DNA of 64,000 nt from Deltaproteobacteria bacterium (GCA_021162935.1 JAGGXR010000029.1:1-64000), one strand, 5' to 3'; shown: positions 1,419 through 21,588, numbered from the stretch's first letter. Program-made: numbers and translations. The notes: generated from the letters alone by a model not told the origin.

Positions 1419-2438
1419 TCATTTCATTTGTAAGAGGTGCCGTGGGAGTTCGTCGAGGGGAATAACGGAATCGACCACCCCTCGTTCGATGGCGGCTCGC
1501 GGCATCCCAAAGATGAGCGAGGAGGCCTTGTCTTGGGCAACCGTCGCTCCACCGGCCTGTTTGATGGCCACGAGTCCTGCGGTACCGTCGTGGCCCATTC
1601 CGGTCATGACGACGCCCACCACATCGCAGCCGAACACGGCTGCCGCGGATTTCATTGCTACATCGGCCGAGGGCCGACATCCATTGACCGGTTCGCTCGT
1701 AGAGAGGTGGATGCAGCCGTCCGGGGCAAATTCGAGGTGCCGGCCGCCCGGAGCCACGAGCGCCGTACCAGGTACGGGGCGGTCCCCTTCTTTGGCCTCT
1801 TGCACTTTGATCGTGGCGATTCTGTCCAGGCGCTCGGCCAGGGTTCCGGTGAAGGCGGCCGGCATGTGCTGAACGATCACCAGCGCCATGGCGGAGCGCC
1901 TCGGCAGCGCAGGCAGGAACGCACTCAGGGCTGCAGGCCCTCCGGTGGAGACGGCGATGACCACGACTTTCTTGCCAATGGCCGCGACCCGCGGGACCAA
2001 AATGGGTGCAGCGCGGGGCCTTGGGACCAATCGTTTGTGGTCCACCGAAGCGGCGGCCCAAACCCGTTCCACCAGGAGGTCGCCAGCGAGGCTGATGTCG
2101 GTGGAAACCTCGCCTGACGGTTTCGTGATAAAGTCCACGGCGCCTGCCTGAAGGGCATCGACCGTCTGCCTCGCGCCTTCCGTCGTGTGGGCGCTCACCA
2201 TGACGATGGGGATGGCGAGGTCGGCCACGATGCGCCGAACCGCCTCCACGCCGTTCAAGATAGGCATGTTGTAGTCCATGGTGATCACGTCGGGCAACAG
2301 ATTCGCAGCTTTTTGAATGGCCATTGCGCCGTCTGACGCCGTGGCCACGACCTCGAATCGGCCGTCGGCCTCCAGGATATGGCTGATGGCCCGTCTCATG
2401 AAGTGAGAATCATCCACGACGAGCACTTTGAATTTCAT
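1419..2438 (-). CDS. cheB: Chemotaxis response regulator protein-glutamate methylesterase CheB
   Basis: 339 aa, full length. An N-terminal receiver (residues 1-~120) with acidic pocket DD9-10 and phosphoacceptor Asp55 is joined to a methylesterase domain (~155-339). The catalytic triad is visible as Ser164 (AVSTGGP), His191 (QHMP) and Asp284 (GMGHDG). It removes methyl groups from, and deamidates, glutamates of chemoreceptors, opposing CheR, and is activated by phosphotransfer from CheA. Its ATG overlaps the cyclase stop by 4 bp (ATGA), so translation is probably coupled. It is the last gene of the chemosensory operon. Confidence 0.97.
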   Translation of the reverse strand: MKFKVLVVDDSHFMRRAISHILEADGRFEVVATASDGAMAIQKAANLLPDVITMDYNMPILNGVEAVRRIVADLAIPIVMVSAHTTEGARQTVDALQAGAVDFITKPSGEVSTDISLAGDLLVERVWAAASVDHKRLVPRPRAAPILVPRVAAIGKKVVVIAVSTGGPAALSAFLPALPRRSAMALVIVQHMPAAFTGTLAERLDRIATIKVQEAKEGDRPVPGTALVAPGGRHLEFAPDGCIHLSTSEPVNGCRPSADVAMKSAAAVFGCDVVGVVMTGMGHDGTAGLVAIKQAGGATVAQDKASSLIFGMPRAAIERGVVDSVIPLDELPRHLLQMK

Positions 2439-4276
2439 GATTGCTCCTGCTGCTTCCGCTGAGCGCTTGGGTCTGATTGGGTCTGTCCGCTCGTATGCGG
2501 ATCTCTGAGACCTGTGATCACGTATCCCTTGACCGGTCCATCGACCCCTTTGAGGTGGATGTCCGTTCGTGATTCCGCCAGCACGTACTCGGCGCAGGCC
2601 GAGTAGGTCACCTCGCTGACCAGCACACCACCAGGCGGAGCCTGGGATTCGAATCGTTGTGCCCGGTTCACCGTGTCGCCGATCACGGTGTAGTCTCGCC
2701 GCACGTGTCTACTCCCATAGTCCCCCCGCACGGCGAACCCACTGTTGATGCCAACCCGAGCGGTCAAGGTCACTCCGTTACTGGTCTTCCATCCGGCAAG
2801 GGCCTCCTGGAGTCGGACGCCAGCCCGGACCGCTGCCAAGGATTCCGCCGTCCGGTCGTCCTCGTCACTGGTGAACACGGCCATCACGGCGTCACCAATG
2901 AACTTGTCGATGTCGCCGCCTTCCTCGATGATGATGGGGCAGATGCGGTCGAAGTATTCATTGAGAATCGACACCACCTCTTCGGGGGCTTTTTGAGAGC
3001 TCATGTGTGTAAAGCCCTGCAGATCGACGAAAAGGACGGTCACCCATTGGCGACTCGCCCGAACGGCCCCAACCTGACCAGCTGCCGCCTGGGCCTCGGC
3101 GGCCTGAGCCGTCCCCTGGGACAGATAGTACTGGGATGCCTTTTTGTAGTCCAACAGACGGCGCTCCGCAAGGAGCCGTTCCACCACGGACACGCATTTG
3201 TCTGCGCTGAAGGGCTTGACGAGATACGCGGTTAGGCCGACGGCTCTCATCTTGGCCCGGTCTTTTCGGCCCTGTCGTGCGGTGAGCATCATGACTGGAA
3301 CGTCTGCGGTTCGAGCATCGTGCTTGAGGGCATAGGCAAGCTGGAACCCGTTTTTTCTGGGCATGTCGAAATCGGTCACCACGAGATCCGGCGGACGGTT
3401 TCTGGCCAAGTCGAGACCTTCCTGTCCGTCGATGGCCGTCACCACATCGAAACCTTGGCGCCTGAGGCTGTCCGCGACCATGTGTCGTACCGGAGCGCTG
3501 TCATCGACCACGAGAATGGTCTCTCGTCCTTCGAGCCGTACGCCGGCCAGAAGGTTCCGGACACGCGTCAGCAGGTCACTTCGATCCACGGGTTTAACCA
3601 GGTAATCGTCTGCGCCAGATTCGAAGCCGCGTTCCAGGTCCACCATGTCCCCGCGGGCGGAACAGATGACCACCGGCGTGTTTGCCGTCGAGTCGTCCTC
3701 CTTGATCTGGCCGCACAACGAGAAGCCGTCCATTTCGGGCATTTCCACGTCCGTCACCACGAGGTCTGGCTTTTCCGCCCGGACGAGCCCCATGGCCTGG
3801 CGACCATCCACGGCCTCGATCACGCTGTAGCCTGAGTCGGTCAGTGCGGAACAGATGTGGCGTCGTGCCACGGCACTGTCGTCCGCTACGAGAATGAGTG
3901 CCTGCTCGCGGACGAGGCGACGCAGCGTGTCCATCAACTCGTCGGCCGAGTAGGGAATCTCCAGATATGCAGCGCCCGGGACGGTCCGCGCCATGGCTCG
4001 ATGCTCGTCGTCCAGTCCAAGAAAGAGGATGGCTGGCCGTTTTTCCGTCGGACGCCCACGGAGTTTGTGTCCCAATTCCCAGGGGTCGAGTTCTGGGTGG
4101 ATGGCCGGCAAAATGGCCACCGCGCCCCGTCGCGAGTCGATGAGATCCTCGAATGTCTTTCCCGTCGAAGTCACCTCGACACGGAAGGGGCTTTCTTGAA
4201 GGTCTTGGCGAAGGGCCAGATCCAGCACCAAGCTTGGCGCGAGAGCTATGACCATGGTCTGTTGGGAAAGCGTCAT
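2435..4276 (-). CDS. Tandem-receiver class III adenylate cyclase (pseudo-REC-REC-REC-cyclase)
   Basis: 613 aa. Residues ~1-120 resemble a receiver fold without the acceptor Asp. Two intact receivers follow: ~125-245 with Asp176 (VVTDVEMP) and ~250-370 with Asp302 (VVTDFDMP). A class III nucleotide cyclase domain occupies ~408-595. The metal-binding aspartates are Asp418 (FVDLQGFT) and Asp462 (IGDAV), adenine-selecting residues are Lys458 and Asp528, and transition-state residues are Asn537 and Arg541, so the set expected for an active, ATP-specific cyclase is present. Its position between cheA and cheB, with ATGA overlaps on both sides, indicates that it is the output protein of this pathway. 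The layout recalls PleD with the GGDEF domain replaced. Phosphorylation by CheA is inferred. Confidence 0.93.
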   Translation of the reverse strand: MTLSQQTMVIALAPSLVLDLALRQDLQESPFRVEVTSTGKTFEDLIDSRRGAVAILPAIHPELDPWELGHKLRGRPTEKRPAILFLGLDDEHRAMARTVPGAAYLEIPYSADELMDTLRRLVREQALILVADDSAVARRHICSALTDSGYSVIEAVDGRQAMGLVRAEKPDLVVTDVEMPEMDGFSLCGQIKEDDSTANTPVVICSARGDMVDLERGFESGADDYLVKPVDRSDLLTRVRNLLAGVRLEGRETILVVDDSAPVRHMVADSLRRQGFDVVTAIDGQEGLDLARNRPPDLVVTDFDMPRKNGFQLAYALKHDARTADVPVMMLTARQGRKDRAKMRAVGLTAYLVKPFSADKCVSVVERLLAERRLLDYKKASQYYLSQGTAQAAEAQAAAGQVGAVRASRQWVTVLFVDLQGFTHMSSQKAPEEVVSILNEYFDRICPIIIEEGGDIDKFIGDAVMAVFTSDEDDRTAESLAAVRAGVRLQEALAGWKTSNGVTLTARVGINSGFAVRGDYGSRHVRRDYTVIGDTVNRAQRFESQAPPGGVLVSEVTYSACAEYVLAESRTDIHLKGVDGPVKGYVITGLRDPHTSGQTQSDPSAQRKQQEQS

Positions 4277-6900
4277 CGTTTATCGCCTCGCACGATTCGG
4301 GTCACGATTCTGGCGAGTTCTTCCTTGTCCACGGGCTTCGATAGGTAGGCGTCCACCCCGCTGTCGAAGCCGCGGATTACGTCGATACGGTCCTCCTTGG
4401 CCGAGATCATGACGATGGGAATCCGCCGGGTGTTCGGGTTCGAGCGGAGCGTTCGCGCAAGCTCGTACCCATCCATCACCGGCATGCGCACGTCTGTGGA
4501 CACGAGGTCGAAGGCTTGGTTTTGGGCCAGGTCGGCCGCTTCGTCGCCATCGGCTGCCTCCACGATTTCAAAGCCCAGGTCCTGATACATCCGGCCCAGT
4601 AGCGTTCTGGCTGGTGGAGAATCGTCCACTAGCAGGACAGTGCCCGCGGCCATGGTAGCGTTCTTGGTCCGTCGGGTCGGGCTGGTCGGTGCGGGGCCGT
4701 GCGGGTTCGTGCGGCCGTCGAGATGTGTCTGAATCAGAGCTGCCAGATCCAAAATGGGCACGACGCGTCCGTCTAGGATCGTGGCACCGCTTATGAACGG
4801 CGGCGCCACGAGCAAGGATCCCATGGTCTTGACGAGGACCTCCTGGCGTCCCACCAGTTCCTGGCATGCGAGTGCGAACAGGGTTTCCTGCTGCTCCACC
4901 AAAATGAGATGGTTGTTCGGTTCGCTTCTGGACGGCAGGCCCAAAATGGTCCCAAGCTGCACCACCCCAACCGGTGGGTCAGTACCATACACCGGCCGGC
5001 CAGCGAGGATGTCGATCGCATCCGGGTCGATCGTCATCGTGCGTTTGACCCAGTCCAGTGGCAGCGCACAGAGCCGACCAGCGACGCGCACGAGGAGGAC
5101 CTGGCGAATCGCTAGGGTCAAAGGGATCGTCAGCGTGAATACGGTGCCCTTGCCTGGGTGGCTGTCCACCGAGACCGATCCACGAAGACGATCCAGCACA
5201 GAGGCCACCACATCCAAACCCACACCGCGTCCTGAAATGTTCGTCACGATTTTTGCCGTGGAGAATCCCGGCTGAAACAGGAATTGGAGAATCTGCCGTC
5301 GGTCCATACGGCCGGCCTGTTCTTCGTCGATGAGAGATCGTTCGATGGCGCGGGCCCGAACGGTCTCTGGCTCGATGCCTCGGCCGTCGTCCTGCACCCG
5401 AACCAGGAGTTGGGCCCCACGGTGTTCCGCGCTGAGCGTCAACGTGCCCTGCTCGGGTTTGTTGACCGCTCTTCGGGCGGCCGGTTCCTCGATCCCGTGA
5501 TCGATCGCATTGCGGACGAGATGGAGGAGCGGTTCGTCGAGTTGTTCGACCATCAGCTTGTCGAGTTCGGTGTTTTGGCCCTCCAGGACGAGCCGGACCG
5601 ACTTTCCCAGCGATCGAGACAGATCTCGAACCGTGCGTTCCTGTTTGGTGAAGATCCGCGCCACGGGCACCATTCGGAGGGACATGACCTGATCGCGGAG
5701 ACGGGCAGCGGTGAAGTCGAGTCGCCCGAGGTGATCATCGAGGCTCCGGCTTACTTCCCGGGCGAATCGACTCATCCGGTCCGTTTCCTCGCCAAGGTCG
5801 TTTCGTCGAGCACCGGTTTTTCTGCCGACAGCCTGCCGTGCCGATCGGGCGAGGTCTGCCATGCTCTCGGACAAGGATTCACTGGATTGCTGAAGTACAT
5901 GAAGGTTGCCCTTGCTCACCACCAATTCGCCGACCAGGTTCAGGAGGACATCCAGCTTTTCGAAGCCCACACGAATGGTGTTCGAAGCGGCACCAATCGC
6001 CCGATGGGAAGGGTGGGCTACGGCCGGTGTTGACCTTTGGGCTGGTATCGCGTTTTCGTCCTGGTCCACAGGAGGCGGAGTGCCCACGCCATCCAAAGGA
6101 TGGTGCAGAATGAACATTGCCTGCTTCACGGTCTTGCCGGGTACCACTCCTCCTCTGAGGGCCAGGTCCAAGACGGCAGACATGGCGTCCTTGGCGTTCA
6201 GGAGCGCGTCGACCACGTTACTGTCCACCATCTTCTTCCCGCTCTTCAACTCTCCGACGAGATCCTCGGCCGCATGGGCGAGGTCATTGAGGGGCACTAG
6301 GGAAACGAAGGCGGCCGACCCCTTGAGGGTGTGGAGATCACGGAAGATCTCGTCCAACAGGGGAGCGGAGTCGTCGTTTTGCTCCAGGGTCAGGAGTTTG
6401 CCCGAGAGGTTTTCGATCCGCTCGGTGCATTCATCCACAAAGGCGGACAGCATCTGTTCGTCCACGGTGGGTGACCAGACAAAGTCGTCGGAGGACAATC
6501 CGTCCCTGTTCGGTTCATCCGCTGACGGTCCTTGCCAGGCGGCGAGCGTCTCGTCGAGCAACTGCGCGACGAGGGCCTCATCGGTGGTTGCCGGATCGTT
6601 GAGTTGCGCCAAGGCTGCTGCCAGTTTATTGATCGTTTCGAGGAGTCGTTTTCTGGCAGGATGATCTCCTAGGAGGCCTCGCAATCGCCGCAAGGCGGTC
6701 GCCAGGCCATCGCTACCGGCCATCCAGGCCGCCAGTTCAATGAGCGCGATTTCGTCGCGAACTCGTTGTGCCTCTTGTCGTTCGAGCTCGGTGGTCGCTG
6801 GTTGGTCGGGCTTTTCGGAGCAGCGATCCGAGAGGTGGTGGAGGTGTTCCATTGCCTCGGAGATGAAGACCTGCCATTGGTCCTGTCCAGAATCATTCAT
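4273..6900 (-). CDS. cheA: Hybrid chemotaxis histidine kinase CheA with C-terminal receiver
   Basis: 875 aa. Residues ~1-115 look like a degenerate HPt lacking the His. A true HPt follows at ~145-245 with acceptor His190 (LHTLKGSAAF). Then come a dimerisation helix pair around 300-400, the HATPase core (N box HLVRNAIDHG, G1 DDGRGI, G2 GRGVGL), a CheW-like coupling domain and a receiver from ~755 (STDVRMP acceptor Asp). This is the FrzE/ChpA-like hybrid type. It autophosphorylates under receptor control and passes phosphate to CheB, its own receiver and probably the cyclase. It overlaps the cyclase gene by ATGA. The 151-bp gap to cheR holds only a weak promoter-like pair (TTGCAC/TAGTAT, 7042-7014). 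Confidence 0.95.
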   Translation of the reverse strand: MNDSGQDQWQVFISEAMEHLHHLSDRCSEKPDQPATTELERQEAQRVRDEIALIELAAWMAGSDGLATALRRLRGLLGDHPARKRLLETINKLAAALAQLNDPATTDEALVAQLLDETLAAWQGPSADEPNRDGLSSDDFVWSPTVDEQMLSAFVDECTERIENLSGKLLTLEQNDDSAPLLDEIFRDLHTLKGSAAFVSLVPLNDLAHAAEDLVGELKSGKKMVDSNVVDALLNAKDAMSAVLDLALRGGVVPGKTVKQAMFILHHPLDGVGTPPPVDQDENAIPAQRSTPAVAHPSHRAIGAASNTIRVGFEKLDVLLNLVGELVVSKGNLHVLQQSSESLSESMADLARSARQAVGRKTGARRNDLGEETDRMSRFAREVSRSLDDHLGRLDFTAARLRDQVMSLRMVPVARIFTKQERTVRDLSRSLGKSVRLVLEGQNTELDKLMVEQLDEPLLHLVRNAIDHGIEEPAARRAVNKPEQGTLTLSAEHRGAQLLVRVQDDGRGIEPETVRARAIERSLIDEEQAGRMDRRQILQFLFQPGFSTAKIVTNISGRGVGLDVVASVLDRLRGSVSVDSHPGKGTVFTLTIPLTLAIRQVLLVRVAGRLCALPLDWVKRTMTIDPDAIDILAGRPVYGTDPPVGVVQLGTILGLPSRSEPNNHLILVEQQETLFALACQELVGRQEVLVKTMGSLLVAPPFISGATILDGRVVPILDLAALIQTHLDGRTNPHGPAPTSPTRRTKNATMAAGTVLLVDDSPPARTLLGRMYQDLGFEIVEAADGDEAADLAQNQAFDLVSTDVRMPVMDGYELARTLRSNPNTRRIPIVMISAKEDRIDVIRGFDSGVDAYLSKPVDKEELARIVTRIVRGDKR

Positions 6901-7051
6901 TCGGTTGCCCCGAGGTCAATGGATGGACGGGTCCTCGATGGATGTCCGCCTGCGTCGTCATCCCAATGTGCCTCTCTGTCCGGTCGTGCGTCCTCGCGTT
7001 CATGGCAGCACCGATACTATGCAGGGCCTTCATCGAGTGCAAGGCGCTCGG

Positions 7052-8260
7052 TTAGGCACGATCGTCGTCCGTCGGGTGTTCGGGGAGGTTCCACCGTTCG
7101 ATCCAATGGCGGACACCTGGTCTGGTGGCCGTGACTTCGAGCCGGCCGCCGAGTTGTTCCACGTGGGCCGAGAGACGAAGGAACAGATCCGCTGCCTCGT
7201 CGCAGAGGAACTCCACGTCGTCCAAGTCCACGATGAATCGCGCCGAGGGTCGTTCGACCAACTCGAAGAGTTCCTGTTTGAGCGCGTCGAGGCGTTCGGG
7301 CGGAAAAGTCCCCTTGATGCGGCGTACCGTGGGCTGAAACGGATCGATCGATCCTGGTTGCTTATCAAGAGTCCCGCTGGTCAGCGGCGACCGTGCGGGA
7401 TCGGGATCCTGGGACCAAGCCACATGTCGCCGATCGCCGCCCTCTGTCCTGGCTGGGAGTTGTTCGGCAGACGATGTTGTCCACAGGATTCCGTTCGCAG
7501 AGGGCAGCGGCGTGAAGACGTCTCGAACCAAGTGGCCCTCGGAGGGCCCGGTCACGAGGATGCCACCAGGAACCAGGACGGTCGCAAGGCGGTTGAGAAC
7601 GGTCCTCAAGGCCGAGGGCGCGAAGTACATGAGGACGTTGCGGACCACAATGACGTCTTGGGGCGTCGGCAGGGGGTCGGTCAGGAGATTGTGCACGCGA
7701 AAGGAGATGTGCCCTCGTAAGGCTTCGGTGGTCCTCGCCGCATCCTCGCTGAGATGCCAGAAGGCAGCAAGCAGCCTCGCTGGGATTCCGACCATTTCGT
7801 TCATTGGATACCGACCCTGCTTTGCCTGTGCAATGGCGTCTTCCGAGAGATCTGTACCCAGGACCGTGAAGTCGCGGGTTGGGTACGCGTCGGCAAGCAG
7901 CATGGCGATGGAGTATGCCTCCTGCCCCCGACCACAGCCAGCACTCCAGATGTGTGCTGCGCCGTTGCGGGAACCGATGATCGTCGTGAGGTCGTCGAGT
8001 TGGTCCTTATGGCGCATCCATGTCGTCTGGTCCACCCGCACGGCGGCTACGAGACGTGCAATTTCCTGTCGGGCCGAGGGTCCTGTGAGGAGCGCCAGAT
8101 ACCGACTTGGGTGGTTGAGCTCCAACGCTTGGGTGCGTTGGCGGATCCGACCTTCCAAGCGCCAGGCTCTCCGTGGCAGCGACGTGAGACCGCAGTGACG
8201 GACGATGATGGCGTCTATCGCTGTCAGCCATGCCGGTTGTCGGGTCGTGTCGCCGTCCAT
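7052..8260 (-). CDS. cheR: Chemoreceptor methyltransferase CheR fused to a STAS domain
   Basis: 402 aa, longer than the usual ~280. Residues ~10-290 are CheR: an N-terminal helical domain and a Rossmann methyltransferase with SAM motif SAGCGRGQEAYS and motif GTDLSEDAI. The usual 'FFR' segment reads WMR, so the catalytic Arg is kept but the aromatics differ. Residues ~305-395 form a STAS-like domain (FIVDLDDVEFLCDEAADLF), but the phosphorylatable Ser of anti-anti-sigma factors is replaced around 'LCDEA'. It methylates glutamates of the receptor encoded just upstream (10-bp gap). The STAS part probably mediates protein contacts, though its partner is unknown. Confidence 0.9.
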   Translation of the reverse strand: MDGDTTRQPAWLTAIDAIIVRHCGLTSLPRRAWRLEGRIRQRTQALELNHPSRYLALLTGPSARQEIARLVAAVRVDQTTWMRHKDQLDDLTTIIGSRNGAAHIWSAGCGRGQEAYSIAMLLADAYPTRDFTVLGTDLSEDAIAQAKQGRYPMNEMVGIPARLLAAFWHLSEDAARTTEALRGHISFRVHNLLTDPLPTPQDVIVVRNVLMYFAPSALRTVLNRLATVLVPGGILVTGPSEGHLVRDVFTPLPSANGILWTTSSAEQLPARTEGGDRRHVAWSQDPDPARSPLTSGTLDKQPGSIDPFQPTVRRIKGTFPPERLDALKQELFELVERPSARFIVDLDDVEFLCDEAADLFLRLSAHVEQLGGRLEVTATRPGVRHWIERWNLPEHPTDDDRA

Positions 8261-8269
8261 ATCGTCGCT

Positions 8270-10393
8270 CTATTCTTCCGAAAGGTCTCTTTCGTCGGGT
8301 GGCGCGAGCGCTGGTTGCTGCGGAACGGCGGCGAGTTGGGATTGAACCACGCGGAACCCTCGGACCGATTCTTCTAGCTTGAAAGCAAGTGCCGATAGCC
8401 GTTCGCCCTGAAGAACCGCATCTTCCGAGGAAGCGAGCACTTCCTGTGCAATGCGCTGAACCACGTCCATGTTCCGTGCGATTTCGTCGGAGGCCAAGGC
8501 CTGCTCCTGGACGGCTCTCGCTGTTTCCTGAAACACACTCACGATGCGTTGGATGTTTCCCAGCGTGTTTTTTACGAGCGACGTACCCTGCTCCACTTCC
8601 TGAATCGTCGCATTCATGGTTCGCACGGCGTTGGCCGTCTGATCCGTGATGGACGCGATCAATTCTTCGATATCATGGGCACTTTGGCCCACGCGCTTCG
8701 CCAGGGAACTCACCTCATCGGCCACGACGGCGAACCCCTTGCCGTGTTCTCCTGCATGGGCCGCTTCGATGGAGGCATTGAGCGCCAACAAAGACGTTTG
8801 CTCAGAAATCTGTCGGATGACCTCAACGATTTTGCCGATTCGATTCCCACTTTCTCCCAAGTGGGTGATCTGCGTTCCGACGTCTTCGACGCTCAGGCGA
8901 ATTTCGTTCATGCGCATCACAGCAGCAGACACTTCGTCTCCGGAGCGTTGCGCCACCTTAGTCGTCTCCATGGCGTTGTCCGCCACCTGTTGGATGGAGC
9001 TGCTCAGTTCGGTGACCGCCGCCGTGGAGCTTTCGGTCTTGAGGGCCTGTTCCTTGGCCCCGTCGAGCATGTTTTTCGATGCATTGCACAGTTGGGTGCT
9101 CGACGCACCGACCTGGAAGGAAGCCTGCTGCACCTGAGCCGTGATGTGTTCCAGTCGTTCGAAGAGTTGATTCAGGTTGCCTGCCAACTCTCCCAGTTCG
9201 TCCCCGGATCGCACGTCGATCCGTTTCGTGAGGTCTCCTTCGCCCTGAACGATTTCCCTGGTCGCGTTGGTGAATTTTCGGATTGGCGAGGCAATCCACA
9301 AGGACAGGACCCATGCCATTGCCAATGACGCAACGGCAATTGCGAGCGCGGCGGGCAACAACCATCCAACGAGTTGTTCGAAGACCTTTTCCTTCCTTCG
9401 GAGGCGAAGGACGTACAAGGTTCCAATCCGTTTCCGTTTGGGTCCTTGGTACCCCACGGCGGGAACGGAGAAGAAGTCATAAAAATGTCCCGCAAAGGAA
9501 ATGACAGGGATCTGCTTGCGCCCTTCCCACGCTTTGTGTCTGCGGTCCCGGCGAAGCGCGGTTCCCAGTGCCGCCCAGACATCCTTGGAGTACACCGAGG
9601 CCAAGACGTCGTTGTCCGTGGACAGGAGAACGAGACGATGCTGCATTCTTGGTCGAGAGTCTGACTGGCGACGGTACTGATCGTAGTATCGCCTCACGCG
9701 AATGCCAATGAGAACGGCACCCAAGACCCGGCCCGATGCGCTGGTGACCGGAGCGCCGGAGACCAGGTACGTGGTGCCCTCGACGAGCAAGAGGGCCCCG
9801 GAGACATACACCCGGTTCAACAGGTCGGTGATGACGCGTTGTTTGGCGCCTGAAACCCGTGGGGCCGAACGGGGGGCATTGAAGAGGCGGCGGCCCTGTG
9901 CGTCGACGATAGTGAAGAGATCCGGGCTGATGGATTCGTCGATCGCACGGGCCAAACGTTTCCAGAGCACGGCATCGTTGTTTTGTTTTCCGGTGGTAGG
10001 CGAAGTGGAAAGCGTGGGCCCCGAACGGCTCTGCCGCGCGCGGTTCCCGGTCGGCCTGCGGGTCGTGGTCGGCGGCTGGCCGGTCGGGATTTTGGCCGTT
10101 GTGCCTACCGACGCCGAAGTCTGCGGACCTCTTTGATCGTGGTCGTACAGAGCCTTCACGAGAGCCTGGTCGGAGGCGATCATCCTGCTGGCTGCCTGCA
10201 AGGCCTGACCGAGCCCTTTTTGGTAGTCCACATACCGCAACAGATGCTTTCGAAGAAAACGTCCACGATCCCGACGGCCCTTTTGGAGCATGACATAGGA
10301 CATGATGCCCGTCGCGGATACGGCCACGGTGGTGATGGCTGCGCAGGCGAAGAAAATTTTCGCCCAGAGTTTCAGTTTGAACGGACCTTTCAC
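8270..10393 (-). CDS. Methyl-accepting chemotaxis protein, transmembrane receptor
   Basis: 707 aa from a GTG at 10393. This start is chosen because AAAGGAG lies 8 nt upstream and the GTG overlaps the cheW stop (GTGA); the longer frame has no membrane-compatible N terminus. TM1 is near residues 10-35, followed by a ~300-residue periplasmic sensor with a Thr/Pro/Arg-rich insert, TM2 (LLPAALAIAVASLAMAWVL), HAMP, and a long signalling helix pair with the invariant hairpin tip (SLLALNASIEAAHAGE...FAVVADEV). It senses an unknown ligand and controls CheA through CheW. It is the only receptor in the operon, so it is probably dedicated. Confidence 0.95.
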   Translation of the reverse strand: MKGPFKLKLWAKIFFACAAITTVAVSATGIMSYVMLQKGRRDRGRFLRKHLLRYVDYQKGLGQALQAASRMIASDQALVKALYDHDQRGPQTSASVGTTAKIPTGQPPTTTRRPTGNRARQSRSGPTLSTSPTTGKQNNDAVLWKRLARAIDESISPDLFTIVDAQGRRLFNAPRSAPRVSGAKQRVITDLLNRVYVSGALLLVEGTTYLVSGAPVTSASGRVLGAVLIGIRVRRYYDQYRRQSDSRPRMQHRLVLLSTDNDVLASVYSKDVWAALGTALRRDRRHKAWEGRKQIPVISFAGHFYDFFSVPAVGYQGPKRKRIGTLYVLRLRRKEKVFEQLVGWLLPAALAIAVASLAMAWVLSLWIASPIRKFTNATREIVQGEGDLTKRIDVRSGDELGELAGNLNQLFERLEHITAQVQQASFQVGASSTQLCNASKNMLDGAKEQALKTESSTAAVTELSSSIQQVADNAMETTKVAQRSGDEVSAAVMRMNEIRLSVEDVGTQITHLGESGNRIGKIVEVIRQISEQTSLLALNASIEAAHAGEHGKGFAVVADEVSSLAKRVGQSAHDIEELIASITDQTANAVRTMNATIQEVEQGTSLVKNTLGNIQRIVSVFQETARAVQEQALASDEIARNMDVVQRIAQEVLASSEDAVLQGERLSALAFKLEESVRGFRVVQSQLAAVPQQPALAPPDERDLSEE

Positions 10394-11016
10394 GGAAATG
10401 ACTCCTTTCCCTCGACAGACGGACGGTCGTGCTGTTCTCGCTTGGTCAGAACAGGTGCCCGGCCCGCCGATCGAACCTCGTCCAGGGTGGGGCTTTGGGC
10501 GATCCGTGTCACGTCCACGATCGCCACGGGGCGCTCGTCGTGGTTCGCTACCCCGATGATCCATGCAGGGCTGCCAGGAGCTTGGGCCTCGCTGATCGCG
10601 GTCGGCGACAGGGAGAGGGATCCCAAGATCTCATCCACCAATAGGCCGAATCGAACCGATTCCGCCTGGACCACGATGAGTCTGGTTTGATCGAGGAGGG
10701 CCGTCTCACCGACTCCGGACAACTTCGCCAGATCCAAGACGGCCAGGATTTCGCCTCGGAGGCTGACGGCTCCGAGCACGAAGTCCGGCAAGCGGAAGAG
10801 TCCGGTGATCGGCGGGGGCTGAACGACTTCGGCCACCTGTGCGACGGAAATCGCCTGGAGTTGGCCGGCCACGGAGAAACACACCACCGCATGTTCTTGC
10901 ACGTCGTGGGCTCTCCGTTCGTCTTCAGTGGCGGAACGTTGCGGCGCGACCGTTTCCCGGCCGCCGGGTGCGGCAACGAGTCCGGCGCCCGGGTGGCTGT
11001 CCATTGTGCTTGTCAT
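10390..11016 (-). CDS. cheW: Chemotaxis coupling protein CheW
   Basis: 208 aa. The CheW fold spans residues ~40-180, with the typical beta-strands and the 'GAVSLRGEILAVLDL' and 'FGLLVDEILG' signatures. Both ends carry extra polar tails of ~40 and ~30 residues. It bridges the receptor and CheA in the signalling array. It is the first gene of the operon and its stop overlaps the mcp GTG. A promoter-like element ends just 7 bp before the ATG at 11016, so that codon may start a leaderless message or an inner ATG four codons later may be used. Confidence 0.92.
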   Translation of the reverse strand: MTSTMDSHPGAGLVAAPGGRETVAPQRSATEDERRAHDVQEHAVVCFSVAGQLQAISVAQVAEVVQPPPITGLFRLPDFVLGAVSLRGEILAVLDLAKLSGVGETALLDQTRLIVVQAESVRFGLLVDEILGSLSLSPTAISEAQAPGSPAWIIGVANHDERPVAIVDVTRIAQSPTLDEVRSAGRAPVLTKREQHDRPSVEGKESFP

Positions 11017-11169: not shown

Positions 11170-12666
11170 TCAGGATTCGGCATCGATTGGTGGGCCCGAG
11201 GCGGTTGTGGCCGATCGATAGGCCCGGTTCTGTGCCCAAACGGCCGCCAGATAGAACCCGGACAGGAGCGCGGCGGCGATACTCAGGGAGGAAAGGGTGG
11301 CGATCCCGGCCACGCTTTGGAGGACGGCGCTCGTGATCACTGCTGCTAGGGGAGAGACGACGCCAAGCACGACGGCTCTGGCACCGGCACGGTCCCCGAA
11401 GGGTTCGCCGTAGTAGAAGATCGCTGAAATCGGTGTCTTGATGGCCGACTTGAATTCGGCAATGAAGAATCGTGCCGTGAGAGCCGCGATCACGGTCGGC
11501 CACAGGGTGAAGGTGACGGCTCCTACGCCCAGACCGAGAGCAAAGGTCACGTTTGCCGCTTCGATCCCTTTCCGTTTGGCGATGGCCGGAGTGACGAAGA
11601 GTTGGAGAAGGAGTGCGGCCACGTGCGCCATGGCGGAATAGGTGCCCAACAGTTCTGCCAGCGCCCGTTCGTCCAAGCTGGCCCGTAGCTTGGTGAGCAC
11701 GACGAGGCGGATGGTCATCCGGATCGCCACGAGGAGCACCGTGGCCAGGGCGATGTTTCGGCAGAGGCGTGATCGACGACAGCGGGCCATTGCCGCGACG
11801 AGGTGAGGCTTTCGCCCGGAGGGCTGAGCGGTGTCTCGTGCGACGAGCGCCTGTTCGTCTGCCCAGACGGACTTGGTGACGAGGCCTTCGCCGGAGGGTC
11901 CGTCCTGAAGAAGGGGGTCCAGAGGCCGTTTGAGACGTCTGGTCGCGTCGTCGCTGGTTTTGCTGCCTGTTCGCAATCCCGCCGAGGTTGTTGGTGGCCT
12001 GGGTTTCATGAACGAATCTGCTTCGATGGTTCCTGGGGGCGCGGTTGGTTTGATGGGTACCTGTTTGCTGCTTCTGTTGCGTCTGGGTACGATGGTGGCG
12101 AAGAACAGGGCGGCAAGAGGCAAAGCTCCGGCTAGGATCGTCATGAGGATCGTGGGCAAGGCCAGCAGTCCCGAGAGTTCCCGCACCGCGGCGCCACCGA
12201 GGGCCCGGCCGACTCCCGCAGCAGTGAACAGAACAGGGAAGAGTCCTGCCGCCTCCGATGGTTGGTAGAGGTCCAGCAGGTAGACGCCCCAATGGATCTT
12301 GACCACGGTATCGGCGCCTTCGAAGATCCCGTAGAGCACCGCATAGGGCCACAGAGCCGGTGTGATGTGCGTTGCGGCAGCAGGAACGATCATGGTCAGG
12401 CCAAGGCCTGCAATGATTTCGACAAGGAGTCTGGTCGTCGTCGAGCGGCGGGCCAGGTGCAGGTAGCCCCACGATCCAGCGACACGGATTACGGCCTGAG
12501 CGGCAAAAATCATGGGGAGATAGGCCACACCCACCCGAGAAACGAACAGCGTTTCCGCCACGAGACGCGCTGTTTCGAGACCCAAGGACATGAGACCGTA
12601 GCCCGTCCAGAGTTGGGCGGTCCGACCCCATGGTACGCTATTGGAACGCCGAGCGCCCAGGTTCAC
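11170..12666 (-). CDS. MFS / ATP:ADP-antiporter-like membrane transporter
   Basis: 498 aa from a GTG at 12666, chosen because GGGGGGA precedes it and it overlaps the upstream stop as GTGA; a TTG 21 bp earlier is possible. About ten to twelve hydrophobic helices fall in two blocks separated by a ~90-residue hydrophilic, basic loop (roughly residues 200-290) and followed by a short polar tail. The pattern 'TARLVAETLFVSRVG...LPMIFAAQAVIRVAGS' resembles NTP/NDP exchangers and related MFS proteins, but no substrate can be read from the sequence. Translational coupling to the RtcB-like gene is the only functional clue. Confidence 0.65.
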   Translation of the reverse strand: MNLGARRSNSVPWGRTAQLWTGYGLMSLGLETARLVAETLFVSRVGVAYLPMIFAAQAVIRVAGSWGYLHLARRSTTTRLLVEIIAGLGLTMIVPAAATHITPALWPYAVLYGIFEGADTVVKIHWGVYLLDLYQPSEAAGLFPVLFTAAGVGRALGGAAVRELSGLLALPTILMTILAGALPLAALFFATIVPRRNRSSKQVPIKPTAPPGTIEADSFMKPRPPTTSAGLRTGSKTSDDATRRLKRPLDPLLQDGPSGEGLVTKSVWADEQALVARDTAQPSGRKPHLVAAMARCRRSRLCRNIALATVLLVAIRMTIRLVVLTKLRASLDERALAELLGTYSAMAHVAALLLQLFVTPAIAKRKGIEAANVTFALGLGVGAVTFTLWPTVIAALTARFFIAEFKSAIKTPISAIFYYGEPFGDRAGARAVVLGVVSPLAAVITSAVLQSVAGIATLSSLSIAAALLSGFYLAAVWAQNRAYRSATTASGPPIDAES

Positions 12667-13850
12667 AGATTTCCCCCCAGGGACCAACGGATGTTCATGG
12701 ATCCGATCACCTCGCCGAGGGCCAGGGCCACTGTCCGCTCGAGGACCTCCTGGCCACGGTATCCGTGCGGCAGGGTTTTGGGTGTCTCGAAGTGGACGTC
12801 ACCCACCGAGAAGAGCCGTCCGGTGGGCCGATCCTGGACCGAGATGTCGCCCTCCGCCAACAAGGCGGTTCCTCCGCCGTGAGGCAGTAGATTGGCGGAT
12901 AGGAGGCGGTCCAAGAGTCCAAGGCGGCTGGCGCGTTCCGCCCAGCCGAGCCGCACGATCGTTTCTTGGGCGAAGCTCGGTTTCGGGCGAAGAAGAAAGA
13001 TGGGCCGGTCCTCTGCCAGGGTCAGGGGAAACCATCCGCTGTCCCCACAGAGGCGCTTCGGCAGACCCGGTCCGTGAAGGTAGCTGCCGAGGGCCATGGA
13101 TCCGGGCCCCGTCATGCCCTGGTGCATGGCTTGGAACAAGACTTCGTGGTCGCCGAACAGGGCGGTTGCCATGGCCCGTCGTCGCCGCAACTGGAACTCA
13201 TGGACCTCGCGGAGGTGGCGGTGATACCGCTCGGCGTTTCGGCCGGTCAGGACGAGGAGGCGCCCCCAGGGCGTTTCGTGGCGAAGCGCCATCTTGCGGA
13301 GTGGTTCGGAAGCATCCCAGTAGAGTCCTGGGCCGTGCAGTGTGGGGCCCCTGTGTTCTGGGCCCGATGAGTGGATCAGAAAGACCGGGCCCCGCCAAGG
13401 CAGGGTCCATCCGGAGTTTTCTGGCTCAGCCACTTCGACGAAGTGATTGGAACGGTCCAGATCCCATTCGATATCGACCCCGTCGACACGGACACCCTGC
13501 CGAATGACACGTTCCAGCCTCTGTCGGATTTCGTGTTTGGGCGGCACGTGGGGCAGGCGGCCCATGAGCACTCCGCAGCCGTTCGGTTTGACGTCGAGGA
13601 CGGCGAAACCGCCACTCCATTCGAGTTTGCCTCCGTACGAAAAACCGGATTTCCACCGAGCGTCGTTCCTGGTCACGGTGGCGTCCGGAGCCCCAATGAA
13701 CGAGGCGTCTTCGGGGAGTCCGATAGAACGTTGAAAGTGGTGGATCTTGGCCAGGCCATATCGCATGTTGGTGCGGCAGAGGACCTCGGCCAGGTCACCT
13801 GTTCCGGCCAGGAAGATGTGTTCGTCGGCATATTCTAGGTGTTTGTCCAT
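12663..13850 (-). CDS. Divergent RtcB-like (RNA ligase fold) protein
   Basis: 395 aa. Overall similarity to RtcB is weak, but the order and spacing of its active-site segments are kept: Asp86/Cys92 in 'DVKPNGCGV' (RtcB FDINCGV), His136 in 'SNHFVEV' (GNHFIEI), His160 in 'FLIHSSG' (VMIHSGS), His243 in 'QAMHQGM', a 'GPGSMALGSY' block matching RtcB PGSMGTxSY, and His324 in 'PHGGG' matching the guanylylated-His HGAG motif. Pyrococcus RtcB uses D95, C98, H203, H234, H329 and H404 in the same order. The MPDVH motif is not recognisable and the N-terminal half is shorter. RNA 3'-phosphate ligation is therefore only a hypothesis. It is coupled to the downstream transporter by GTGA. Confidence 0.5.
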   Translation of the reverse strand: MDKHLEYADEHIFLAGTGDLAEVLCRTNMRYGLAKIHHFQRSIGLPEDASFIGAPDATVTRNDARWKSGFSYGGKLEWSGGFAVLDVKPNGCGVLMGRLPHVPPKHEIRQRLERVIRQGVRVDGVDIEWDLDRSNHFVEVAEPENSGWTLPWRGPVFLIHSSGPEHRGPTLHGPGLYWDASEPLRKMALRHETPWGRLLVLTGRNAERYHRHLREVHEFQLRRRRAMATALFGDHEVLFQAMHQGMTGPGSMALGSYLHGPGLPKRLCGDSGWFPLTLAEDRPIFLLRPKPSFAQETIVRLGWAERASRLGLLDRLLSANLLPHGGGTALLAEGDISVQDRPTGRLFSVGDVHFETPKTLPHGYRGQEVLERTVALALGEVIGSMNIRWSLGGNL

Positions 13851-18749: not shown

Positions 18750-19877
18750 CTATCGTGGAGAGCGGTAGTCGCGGTCCTTGGGTATCGCCCCTCCCGCCGC
18801 GGTGATCATCGTCTTGAGTTCGTCTGGGTCCGTGCTGTGCCCAAGACATTCTTCCAACGTGATGGATCGGGACAGGAGCAGGCTCATGAGCGACTGGTTC
18901 ATGGTTTGCATGCCGTACTTGGATTGTCCAAGCTGCATCTGTGAATAGACTTGGTGCACCTTGTCCTCTCGGATGAGGTTTCTGATGGCGGCGTTCGGCA
19001 CGAGGATCTCGACAGACATCACCCGGCCGGGCCCGGTGGCTTTCGGCAGGAGTTGTTGGGAGATGACCCCTTCGAGAACAAACGACAGTTCCACTCGGAT
19101 CTGTGTCTGCTGGTGAGGGGGGAACACGTCGATGATTCGGTTGATGGTCTGAACGGCGTTGTTTGTATGCAGGGTCGCCAGGCAAAGGTGCCCGGTTTCG
19201 GCCGTGGTCAAAGCCGCCTGGATGGTTTCGAGATCGCGCATTTCGCCGATGAGGACAACGTCTGGGTCCTGGCGGAGGATATACTTGAGGGCTCGTTTGA
19301 AGCTCTTGGTATCAGCCCCGACTTCTCGTTGATTCACCAGGCAACCCTTGTGGGGGTGCAGGTATTCGATGGGGTCTTCGATCGTGATGATATGGCCACG
19401 TCGCTCCGTATTGATCATGTCGATCATGGCCGCCAGAGAGGTGGACTTTCCCGAGCCGGTAGGGCCGGTGACCAGCACGAGGCCGCGAGGTCTGCGGCAG
19501 AGATCCTGGACCACGTCCGGCAAGCCGAGTTCCTCGATGGTCCGCACCTTGAACGGGATGAGCCTGAAGGCTCCTGCCACAGCGCCGCGTTGCCAGTAGA
19601 TATTGGCGCGAAATCGAGCCAGGTTTTTCACGCCAAAACTCAGATCGAGTTCTTGTTCTTCTTCGAAACGCATTTTTTGGGCATCGGTCAGGATACTGTA
19701 ACAGAGCTGCTTGGTCTGCGTGGGGCCAAGAGGTGGCATCCTGAGCGGAATGAGTCGGCCGTCGATACGGAGTTGGGGCGGGCTACCGGACGTGACGTGG
19801 AGGTCCGATGCCCCCTTTTCCAACATGGCACGCAGAAGCTGATCGATCCGCGGCATGGCCATACCCTGTGAGTACAT
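18750..19877 (-). CDS. pilT: Type IV pilus retraction ATPase PilT
   Basis: 375 aa. N-terminal PAS-like domain, then the secretion ATPase core with Walker A GPTGSGKST, Asp box, Walker B (DPDVVLIGEMRD) and His box (TGHLCLATLHTNNA). The C-terminal tail is a little longer than Pseudomonas PilT. It drives pilus depolymerisation, hence twitching or gliding motility. It starts 16 bp after the pilB stop; GGA lies 12 nt before the ATG. pilC, pilD and pilin genes are not in the window. Confidence 0.95.
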   Translation of the reverse strand: MYSQGMAMPRIDQLLRAMLEKGASDLHVTSGSPPQLRIDGRLIPLRMPPLGPTQTKQLCYSILTDAQKMRFEEEQELDLSFGVKNLARFRANIYWQRGAVAGAFRLIPFKVRTIEELGLPDVVQDLCRRPRGLVLVTGPTGSGKSTSLAAMIDMINTERRGHIITIEDPIEYLHPHKGCLVNQREVGADTKSFKRALKYILRQDPDVVLIGEMRDLETIQAALTTAETGHLCLATLHTNNAVQTINRIIDVFPPHQQTQIRVELSFVLEGVISQQLLPKATGPGRVMSVEILVPNAAIRNLIREDKVHQVYSQMQLGQSKYGMQTMNQSLMSLLLSRSITLEECLGHSTDPDELKTMITAAGGAIPKDRDYRSPR

Positions 19878-19893
19878 CTGCTGATGGTTCCTT

Positions 19894-21588
19894 TCAATCG
19901 CCGGAGGTGACCCGAAGAATTTCTTCGGTGGTGGTAACGCCTTCGAGGATTTTTGCGAGCCCGGCGATCCGCAGCGTCCTCATGCCCAAGCGGATGGACT
20001 CTGCTTTGATTTCGGCGGTGGAGGCCCCCTGCAGCACGAGTTCCTTCAGCTCGTCTCCAAAGGTCATGACCTCGTACAGAGCGACGCGTCCCTTGTAGCC
20101 GGTGTTGTTGCAGTGTCGGCATCCGACCCCAGCGTAAACCTGCGCTTTGGTGGCGTCCTCGGGAGGTAGGCCCATGTCGATGAGGACTTGGGGGTTCGCT
20201 TCGACCGGGGTCTTACATTCCGGGCAGATTTTGCGAGCGAGTCGCTGGGCCAGGATGAGATTCACCGACGCCGTCACCAGGAAGGGCTCAATGCCCATGT
20301 TGAGGAGTCGTGTGATGGTAGACGGGGCGTCGTTCGTGTGGAGGGTGGACAATACGAGGTGGCCCGTCAGAGCTGCTTTGATGGCGATCTCGGCGGTTTC
20401 GTAGTCGCGGATCTCGCCAACCATGATGATGTCGGGATCCTGTCGCAGAAACGACCGTAGGGCGGCTGCGAAGTTGAGGCCGATGTCCTCGTGCATTTGG
20501 ACCTGATTGACGCCAGGAAGGTTGTACTCAACCGGGTCTTCGGCCGTCGAGATATTCTCGGAGGCTTTGTTGAGTTCCGTCAGGGCGCTGTACAACGTGG
20601 TCGTCTTTCCGGATCCGGTCGGGCCGGTCACGAGCACCAGACCGTACGGTTGATAAATGGCTTTTTTGAAGCCGGCCAGAGGTTTGGCCTCGAATCCCAA
20701 CTTGGTCATGTCGAGCTGGAGGTTCGACTTGTCCAGGAGTCGGAGAACCACCTTTTCTCCAAAGAGCGTCGGCAGGACCGAGACGCGGAAGTCCAACTCT
20801 TTTCCCTTGCCGAGTTTGAGTTTCATTCGGCCGTCTTGAGGAAGTCGACGTTCGGCGATGTCGAGTTGGCTCATGATCTTGAGTCGGGACGTGATGGCGT
20901 TTTTGAGCTTGAGCGGCGGGTTGAGTTCCTCGTAGAGGACGCCGTCGATTCGGTACCGGACACGGAAGCTTTTTTCGTATGGTTCGATGTGGATATCCGA
21001 GGCACCCTTTTTGATGGCGTTGAGGAGAATGTAGTTCACCAGCCGAATGACCGGAGCCTCCCCGGACTGTCGTTCCAGATCCACCACGTTGAGATCTTCT
21101 TCGGAGTCTCCGAAAGAGATGTCGGAATCTTCGAATTCCTCCATGACGTCGTCGTAGGAAACCTGCTTCGAATAATAGGTTTCGAGCGCTTCTTCGATGG
21201 CCACTTCCGAGGCGACCACGACCTGGATGTTGAGGCCTGTCAGGAACTTCAATTCATCAATGGCGAAGATGTTCGAGGGGTCGCTCATGGCAACGGTCAG
21301 CGATGCACCCTGTCGGTCGATGGGGATGGCTAAGTGTTTTCTGGCAACGTCCTCGGGAATCAGCTTGATGACTTCCGTGTCGATCTCGAATTCGGACAGG
21401 TTGACGGAGGGCACGCCATATTGCCGCGAGAGAAAATCGATGAGATCGTTTTCCGCAATGTAGCCGAGCTTCGTCAGGCTGTACCCCAGCCTCTTTCCGG
21501 TTCGCTTTTGCTCACCTTGTGCTCGTCTGAGTTGTTCCAGGCTGATGAGGCTCTCTCGAACGAGAAGCTCGCCGAGTCGACTACTCAT
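19894..21588 (-). CDS. pilB: Type IV pilus extension ATPase PilB
   Basis: 564 aa, normal length. N-terminal MshEN/T2SSE_N region (~1-155), linker, then the ATPase core with Walker A GPTGSGKTTT, Walker B (DPDIIMVGEIRD) and a tetracysteine zinc site (CPEC ... CRHC), characteristic of PilB/GspE rather than PilT. It powers pilin polymerisation at the inner membrane. In many relatives the N-terminal MshEN domain binds c-di-GMP, but I cannot confirm the full motif here. A good ribosome site (CAGGAGATGGTGCC) precedes the ATG. Confidence 0.95.
   Translation of the reverse strand: MSSRLGELLVRESLISLEQLRRAQGEQKRTGKRLGYSLTKLGYIAENDLIDFLSRQYGVPSVNLSEFEIDTEVIKLIPEDVARKHLAIPIDRQGASLTVAMSDPSNIFAIDELKFLTGLNIQVVVASEVAIEEALETYYSKQVSYDDVMEEFEDSDISFGDSEEDLNVVDLERQSGEAPVIRLVNYILLNAIKKGASDIHIEPYEKSFRVRYRIDGVLYEELNPPLKLKNAITSRLKIMSQLDIAERRLPQDGRMKLKLGKGKELDFRVSVLPTLFGEKVVLRLLDKSNLQLDMTKLGFEAKPLAGFKKAIYQPYGLVLVTGPTGSGKTTTLYSALTELNKASENISTAEDPVEYNLPGVNQVQMHEDIGLNFAAALRSFLRQDPDIIMVGEIRDYETAEIAIKAALTGHLVLSTLHTNDAPSTITRLLNMGIEPFLVTASVNLILAQRLARKICPECKTPVEANPQVLIDMGLPPEDATKAQVYAGVGCRHCNNTGYKGRVALYEVMTFGDELKELVLQGASTAEIKAESIRLGMRTLRIAGLAKILEGVTTTEEILRVTSGD

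Follow-up and report, generated by a model that had tools for sequence, protein, structure and literature searches.

A chemosensory operon predicted to signal through a receiver-coupled adenylate cyclase

The stretch analysed here, 64,000 nucleotides of a Deltaproteobacteria bacterium genome (GCA_021162935.1, JAGGXR010000029.1:1-64000; hereafter the window), carries on its minus strand a chemosensory operon running from 11016 to 1419. Open reading frames (ORFs) and Pfam matches identify its genes as cheW, a chemoreceptor gene (mcp), cheR, cheA, a gene for a response regulator joined to a nucleotide cyclase (the RR-cyclase), and cheB. The first gene, cheW (10390–11016, 208 aa; Pfam CheW, E 2.6e-30), is followed by the chemoreceptor ORF (8270–10564; Pfam HAMP and MCPsignal), the start of which we take as GTG 10393 (giving 8270–10393); this codon overlaps the cheW stop and is probably the true start, and the alignment of orthologous receptors begins at residue 58 of the window ORF. 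Next come cheR with a C-terminal STAS region (7052–8260, 402 aa; Pfam CheR 1.5e-39, STAS_2 9.5e-6), a hybrid cheA (4273–6900, 875 aa; Hpt, dimerisation, HATPase, CheW-like, and C-terminal REC domains by Pfam), the RR-cyclase (2435–4276, 613 aa; two Pfam receivers and Guanylate_cyc, E 5e-26), and cheB (1419–2438, 339 aa; REC and methylesterase, with the receiver Asp and the S-H-D motifs present). The RR-cyclase gene overlaps cheA upstream (4273–4276) and cheB downstream (2435–2438) by 4 bp each. The initial annotation had described the same gene content, with a single receptor, a hybrid cheA, and no cheY, and had the RR-cyclase lying between cheA and cheB and overlapped by both, all of which the ORFs and Pfam matches bear out; its operon boundary at 2435, however, omitted cheB, which is a member of the operon.

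From its N-terminus, the RR-cyclase comprises the pseudo-receiver REC1 (3914–4258, residues 7–121; delimited by AlphaFold2 secondary structure and alignment), the receivers REC2 (3545–3901, residues 126–244) and REC3 (3152–3523, residues 252–375), and a predicted class III (IIIb-type) adenylate cyclase domain (2507–3058, residues 407–590; identified by Pfam, a match to CyaB, and catalytic residues), all encoded on the minus strand. In the AlphaFold2 model REC1 shows every element of the (beta-alpha)5 fold, yet it lacks the acidic pair, the phospho-accepting Asp, and the Lys. REC2 and REC3 retain all of these, with Asp176 and Asp302 as acceptors, and are by their residues phosphorylatable receivers. 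Pfam, alignment, and the model thus agree with the make-up first proposed for the protein (a pseudo-receiver, two intact receivers, and a complete class III cyclase), and motif location gives the same numbering for Asp176, Asp302, and CheA His190. The model was built from ten homologs with a mean pLDDT of 81 and a pTM of 0.41, so that its single domains are reliable and its domain arrangement is not. As modelled, REC2 covers residues 127–244 and REC3 residues 253–384, and the long last helix of REC3 continues as a linker into the cyclase.

In class III cyclases a Lys specifies adenine, and a Thr replacing Asp marks class IIIb; Lys458 and Thr530 accordingly predict an adenylate cyclase of class IIIb. 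The metal-binding Asp418 and Asp462 and the transition-state residues Asn537 and Arg541 are present as well and, with Lys458 and Thr530, lead us to expect an active enzyme. Among solved structures the best sequence match is Pseudomonas aeruginosa CyaB (3r5g, E 1.9e-31). For the cyclase part, the nearest structures by Foldseek are Spirulina CyaC (1wc0–1wc6) and P. aeruginosa CyaB, with a target-normalised TM-score of 0.86 to CyaB; for the whole chain the top match is PleD, with low global TM-scores (0.22–0.32). Pfam detects no GGDEF domain in the window RR-cyclase, but Guanylate_cyc instead. Solved relatives include a guanylate cyclase, Synechocystis Cya2 (2w01), and the sign of control is unreadable from sequence, so a variant of the same coupling in which the product is cGMP, or in which phosphorylation inhibits the cyclase, deserves consideration. 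Lys458, however, sits where Cya2 has Glu (IDKF versus IDEF in the alignment), and together with CyaB as the best match this indicates ATP as the substrate; we regard the variant, which is compatible with our preferred explanation, as rather unlikely.

The predicted phosphorylation site of CheA is His190, located by Pfam and motif in the sole Hpt domain of the kinase. Examination of gene content revealed no single-domain receiver (CheY) in the window operon or in its orthologous operons. CheA, CheW, and the chemoreceptor are encoded together and a multidomain response regulator stands in place of a single-domain CheY; both are features of the alternative cellular function (ACF) systems, the latter being a stated ACF feature (PMC3447774). 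Judged from this gene content, the operon is best read as a complete ACF-type chemosensory unit with the adenylate cyclase as its sole dedicated response regulator.

The gene order proposed as worth seeking in relatives recurs in several families, among which orthologs of the RR-cyclase share 44–52% identity over the alignment. The full order cheW-mcp-cheR-cheA-RR-cyclase-cheB is found at five loci (L099, L101, L103, L104, and L120) and the same order on three contigs cut at one end (L100, L105, and L130), while locus L129 has cheW-cheR-cheA-RR-cyclase-cheB without a receptor match. In families f14, f17, and f24 the RR-cyclase gene accompanies cheB or lies close to it, with CheA encoded at another locus; in f17 the cyclase sits with cheB, and the CheA locus reads cheW-mcp-cheR-cheA and holds no other response regulator. 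This split is not merely assembly fragmentation, since the assembly of genome G151 consists of five contigs and still has the two genes on separate contigs of megabase size. In genome G038, a protein of repeated ASH/HYDIN-like Ig domains is encoded directly upstream of the RR-cyclase (L102:7570–9807).

The separation of the genes in some lineages allowed the pairing to be followed independently of linkage. Among 379 sampled genomes of the phylum, with CheA orthologs defined at E ≤ 1e-85, the RR-cyclase occurs in 24 and the CheA ortholog in 16; the RR-cyclase is present in all 16 genomes with this CheA versus 8 of the 363 without it, and no genome has the CheA alone. As the genomes are not independent by descent, the association (Fisher's exact test, 1e-22) serves as description only. 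It tells more that the two genes are unlinked in 10 of the 16 CheA-bearing genomes, and that both are missing from sampled relatives in families f14, f15, and f17. Because co-inheritance persists without linkage, the pairing stands as a strong prediction. In a tree of 44 CheAs, built with paralogs of related genomes, the CheAs of 7 linked and 10 split loci form one clade (support 99/99) apart from 24 others; three further linked CheAs (L105, L129, and L130) belong to another group with weaker support. Presence in only 24 of the 379 genomes might be taken to suggest a fortuitous grouping or a system in decay, but with the 4-bp overlaps, the order kept across families, the intact active sites, and the co-inheritance of unlinked genes, such an origin is scarcely credible.

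The same data bear on the idea that CheA in truth serves a single-domain CheY from another locus, such as one next to a different CheA cluster, with the cyclase as a side branch. A CheY gene apart from its CheA is common, and in the same genome contig C44 encodes a 145-aa receiver protein beside a CheA. That CheA, however, falls in a different clade, orthologous operons lack CheY, and the RR-cyclase stays with the CheA studied here in genomes where the genes are split, which together render this idea distinctly unlikely.

We compared residues across 29 RR-cyclase homologs, 23 from the CheA-paired clade (CheA shown for 20, undetected for 3) and six from an outgroup. Asp176 is present in all 29. 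All 23 proteins of the paired clade keep Asp176 and Asp302 together with their acid pockets and Lys. REC3, in contrast, is broken in four of the six outgroup proteins, none of which comes from a locus or genome with this CheA, through replacement of Asp302 by Ala or Glu or through loss of a pocket residue or of the Lys; the four include close relatives and so count as two or three events. Three RR-cyclase relatives (L106, L125, and L126) have lost the REC3 phospho-acceptor Asp, and chemosensory genes were not found near them; these proteins have possibly been re-wired to another kinase.

All 22 paired proteins that cover the catalytic residues of the cyclase have them intact (L105 is cut off before Thr530). 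This argues against a role of the three-receiver protein mainly as a phosphate sink or scaffold, in which the cyclase would be governed otherwise (e.g. by bicarbonate, as class IIIb enzymes can be) and cAMP would not be the main output. Multiple receivers including a pseudo-receiver, alongside a hybrid CheA, do resemble phosphate-buffering designs, and a distant homolog (L020) retains both receivers with its cyclase catalytic residues gone, but the operon encodes no other output protein, and we consider the sink an unlikely explanation. The L020 homolog, from Magnetococcales (L020:9980–11734), has three receivers and a cyclase missing a metal Asp, the Asn, and the Arg, and could be a regulator without enzyme activity; we rejected it as a representative of the same system, as CheA is absent nearby and the cyclase catalytic residues are lost.

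Taken together, the gene order, the co-inheritance, the single CheA clade, and the conservation of REC3 support the central proposal of the initial annotation, that the output of the operon is a receiver-coupled adenylate cyclase, and we think it probable that CheA controls the RR-cyclase through phosphotransfer, with cAMP as the output. In such a pathway, receptor and CheW would set the autophosphorylation of CheA at His190, and phosphate would pass to Asp176 and/or Asp302. Phosphorylation would change how the dimerised receivers pack, and the long helix that leads out of REC3 into the cyclase would determine how the two halves of the enzyme line up, as in the REC-REC-GGDEF protein PleD and the REC-GGDEF protein WspR. 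By analogy with WspR, our guess is that phosphate turns the cyclase on. The receptor would be reset by CheR and by CheB, the latter competing for phosphate. The cell would thereby gain an adapting cAMP signal. Some of its cyclic nucleotide-binding proteins would probably sense this signal, which may be connected with the working of type IV pili.

Several observations weigh against this proposal. In three proteins of the paired clade (L102, L122, and L128), a partner CheA was not detected; the contigs of L122 and L128 are 3 and 7 kb long, and G038, the 95% complete genome of L102, may truly lack CheA. The C-terminal receiver of CheA itself and the receiver of CheB could be end-points for the phosphate, and the two other CheA clusters of the genome could supply a CheY as the real target. 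If CheA does act on the RR-cyclase, one phosphotransfer step onto the enzyme would carry the output of the array into cAMP, under methylation-based adaptation. Receptor state would then be tied to a global second messenger by a short route that is open to experimental test. Relatives with linked genes, with split genes, and without CheA (the last with a broken REC3) offer natural experiments on receiver gating of a class III cyclase.

On the input side, the chemoreceptor has two predicted membrane helices, an extracytoplasmic Cache-like sensor of approximately 300 aa, a HAMP domain, and a signalling domain; the sCache match is weak in the window protein, and dCache_3 is above the cut-off in the ortholog at L100. 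The STAS region fused to CheR (its last ~90 residues) is an uncommon addition to a receptor methyltransferase and is also present in the orthologs at L099, L103, L104, and L120; Pfam detects no TPR domain in the window CheR, which has STAS there instead. Directly upstream of cheW, two genes without a Pfam or NCBIfam match (11170–13850) hold a position that is kept at L099 and L104.

The source genome is a 5.1 Mb draft in 168 contigs, 97% complete, from a group that we infer to be Myxococcota, and encodes three CheAs, four class III cyclases, and 15 matches to cyclic nucleotide-binding domains. Outside the operon, the type IV pilus motor ATPases pilT (TIGR01420) and pilB (TIGR02538) lie at 18750–21588 on the minus strand, both above NCBIfam curated cut-offs; they begin 7.7 kb upstream of cheW, in line with the distance of about 8 kb originally noted. 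A pilB-pilT pair occurs near the operon in three families, including genomes G053 (L144) and G052 (L145), on the opposite side from that in the window. At L118, the RR-cyclase gene immediately follows pilQ, and at L113, L115, L116, L117, and L119 pilO/pilQ lie several kilobases from it. The recurrence of pilus genes near the cyclase in several families suggests a link between the cAMP system and pili. A chance neighbourhood of pilB/pilT, which we also considered, is weakened by their proximity in three families, though the side differs in the window. The window PilB (19894–21588) has an N-terminal MshEN domain, which binds cyclic di-GMP (c-di-GMP), and the pilus motor beside the cAMP system may therefore also respond to c-di-GMP.

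Chemosensory arrays drive flagella, pili, and, via WspR, c-di-GMP. The cyclase response regulator in place of CheY suggests that in some myxobacteria a chemoreceptor signal is turned directly into cAMP, and comparable arrangements appear in other phyla. There, a scan of contigs with a single protein, which yielded mostly receiver-only matches, gave the following loci among the matches listed: MCP-CheA-CheW-CheB-CheR-REC-cyclase without CheY in a Ferrovum metagenome-assembled genome (MAG; L022, 9926–11089); a one-receiver cyclase in or beside a chemosensory operon of an uncultured betaproteobacterium (L031, 9920–11059); cheB-cheR-REC-cyclase in the cultured Polynucleobacter nymphae (L028, 9941–11059); CheW-CheR-CheW-MCP-CheA-CheB-REC-cyclase without CheY in a Legionella MAG (L023, 11043–12338); and a one-receiver cyclase with a chemosensory operon including CheD in a Planctomycetia MAG (L063, 10480–11778). 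These REC-cyclases resemble that of the window in being encoded with chemosensory genes, but have one receiver and another gene order; the cyclases of the Betaproteobacteria and Planctomycetia are class IIIa-like (KTIGD...YDLWG), and the CheAs of these loci fall apart from the window CheA in the tree. Since the operons differ in how their genes are ordered, in the number of receivers, and in the subtype of the cyclase, and their CheAs do not group with that of the window, separate assembly is likely. The uniqueness implied by the initial annotation goes too far: CyaB of the Pil-Chp system is indeed a separate protein, but Betaproteobacteria, Planctomycetia, and a Legionella MAG also have REC-cyclases in their chemosensory operons, and a 2012 survey lists a mononucleotidyl cyclase among the response-regulator output domains in cheR-TPR clusters, without follow-up (PMC3447774). 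A survey of M. xanthus names adenylate cyclase only in a definition of HAMP and in a method reference (PMC3945109). Apart from the 2012 listing, an adenylate cyclase under CheA control was not the subject of any study that we found in the open literature, subscription journals being mostly outside the search. A broader proposition, which we judge as apt to be right as wrong, is that receptor-CheA-adenylate cyclase is an overlooked and repeatedly evolved kind of pathway, through which an adapting array writes into cAMP: it would have arisen separately in Myxococcota (three receivers, class IIIb), in Betaproteobacteria including Polynucleobacter and Ferrovum and in Planctomycetia (one receiver, IIIa-type), and in the Legionella MAG, and in Myxococcota would serve type IV pili without Pil-Chp proteins.

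Comparison with known systems places the window protein among receiver-gated cyclases of differing product and control. In cyanobacterial CyaC, the histidine kinase resides within the same protein as the REC and class III cyclase domains. As in CyaC, receivers are predicted to govern a class IIIb adenylate cyclase, and the cyclase fold matches 1wc0–1wc6, but the kinase of the window system is a separate, receptor-coupled CheA. Caulobacter PleD (REC-REC-GGDEF) likewise has tandem receivers before a cyclase; its output domain, however, is GGDEF, the likeness is limited to domain order because global TM-scores are low, and PleD is not known to be under CheA control. Tandem receivers also precede the cyclase in chemosensory cluster 2 of Halomonas titanicae, which encodes an Hpt-REC-REC-GGDEF protein and CheY2 (PMC5907407); in contrast to the window system, that enzyme makes c-di-GMP and the cluster has a CheY. 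In the Pil-Chp system of P. aeruginosa, a separate CyaB is activated via PilG to raise cAMP (PMC12632253). Pil-Chp resembles the pathway proposed here in placing cAMP under a chemosensory system with ties to type IV pili, and the window cyclase is closest by sequence to CyaB among solved structures; in the window, however, receivers and cyclase form one polypeptide, encoded between cheA and cheB, and the operon has one Hpt domain and no single-domain receiver, whereas Pil-Chp has the CheY-like proteins PilG and PilH and a multi-Hpt CheA.

The wsp operon of Pseudomonas is organised around one receptor, a hybrid CheA with a receiver, CheR, and CheB, without CheY. The window operon shares each of these features as well as a nucleotide-cyclase response regulator as output. 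The two differ in that the Wsp CheR (WspC) carries TPR and the window CheR carries STAS, and in that WspR, a REC-GGDEF protein (PMC3447774), is a diguanylate cyclase with one receiver, whereas the window protein is a predicted class III adenylate cyclase with three. The window system is therefore best read as like Wsp in its logic, with cAMP replacing c-di-GMP.

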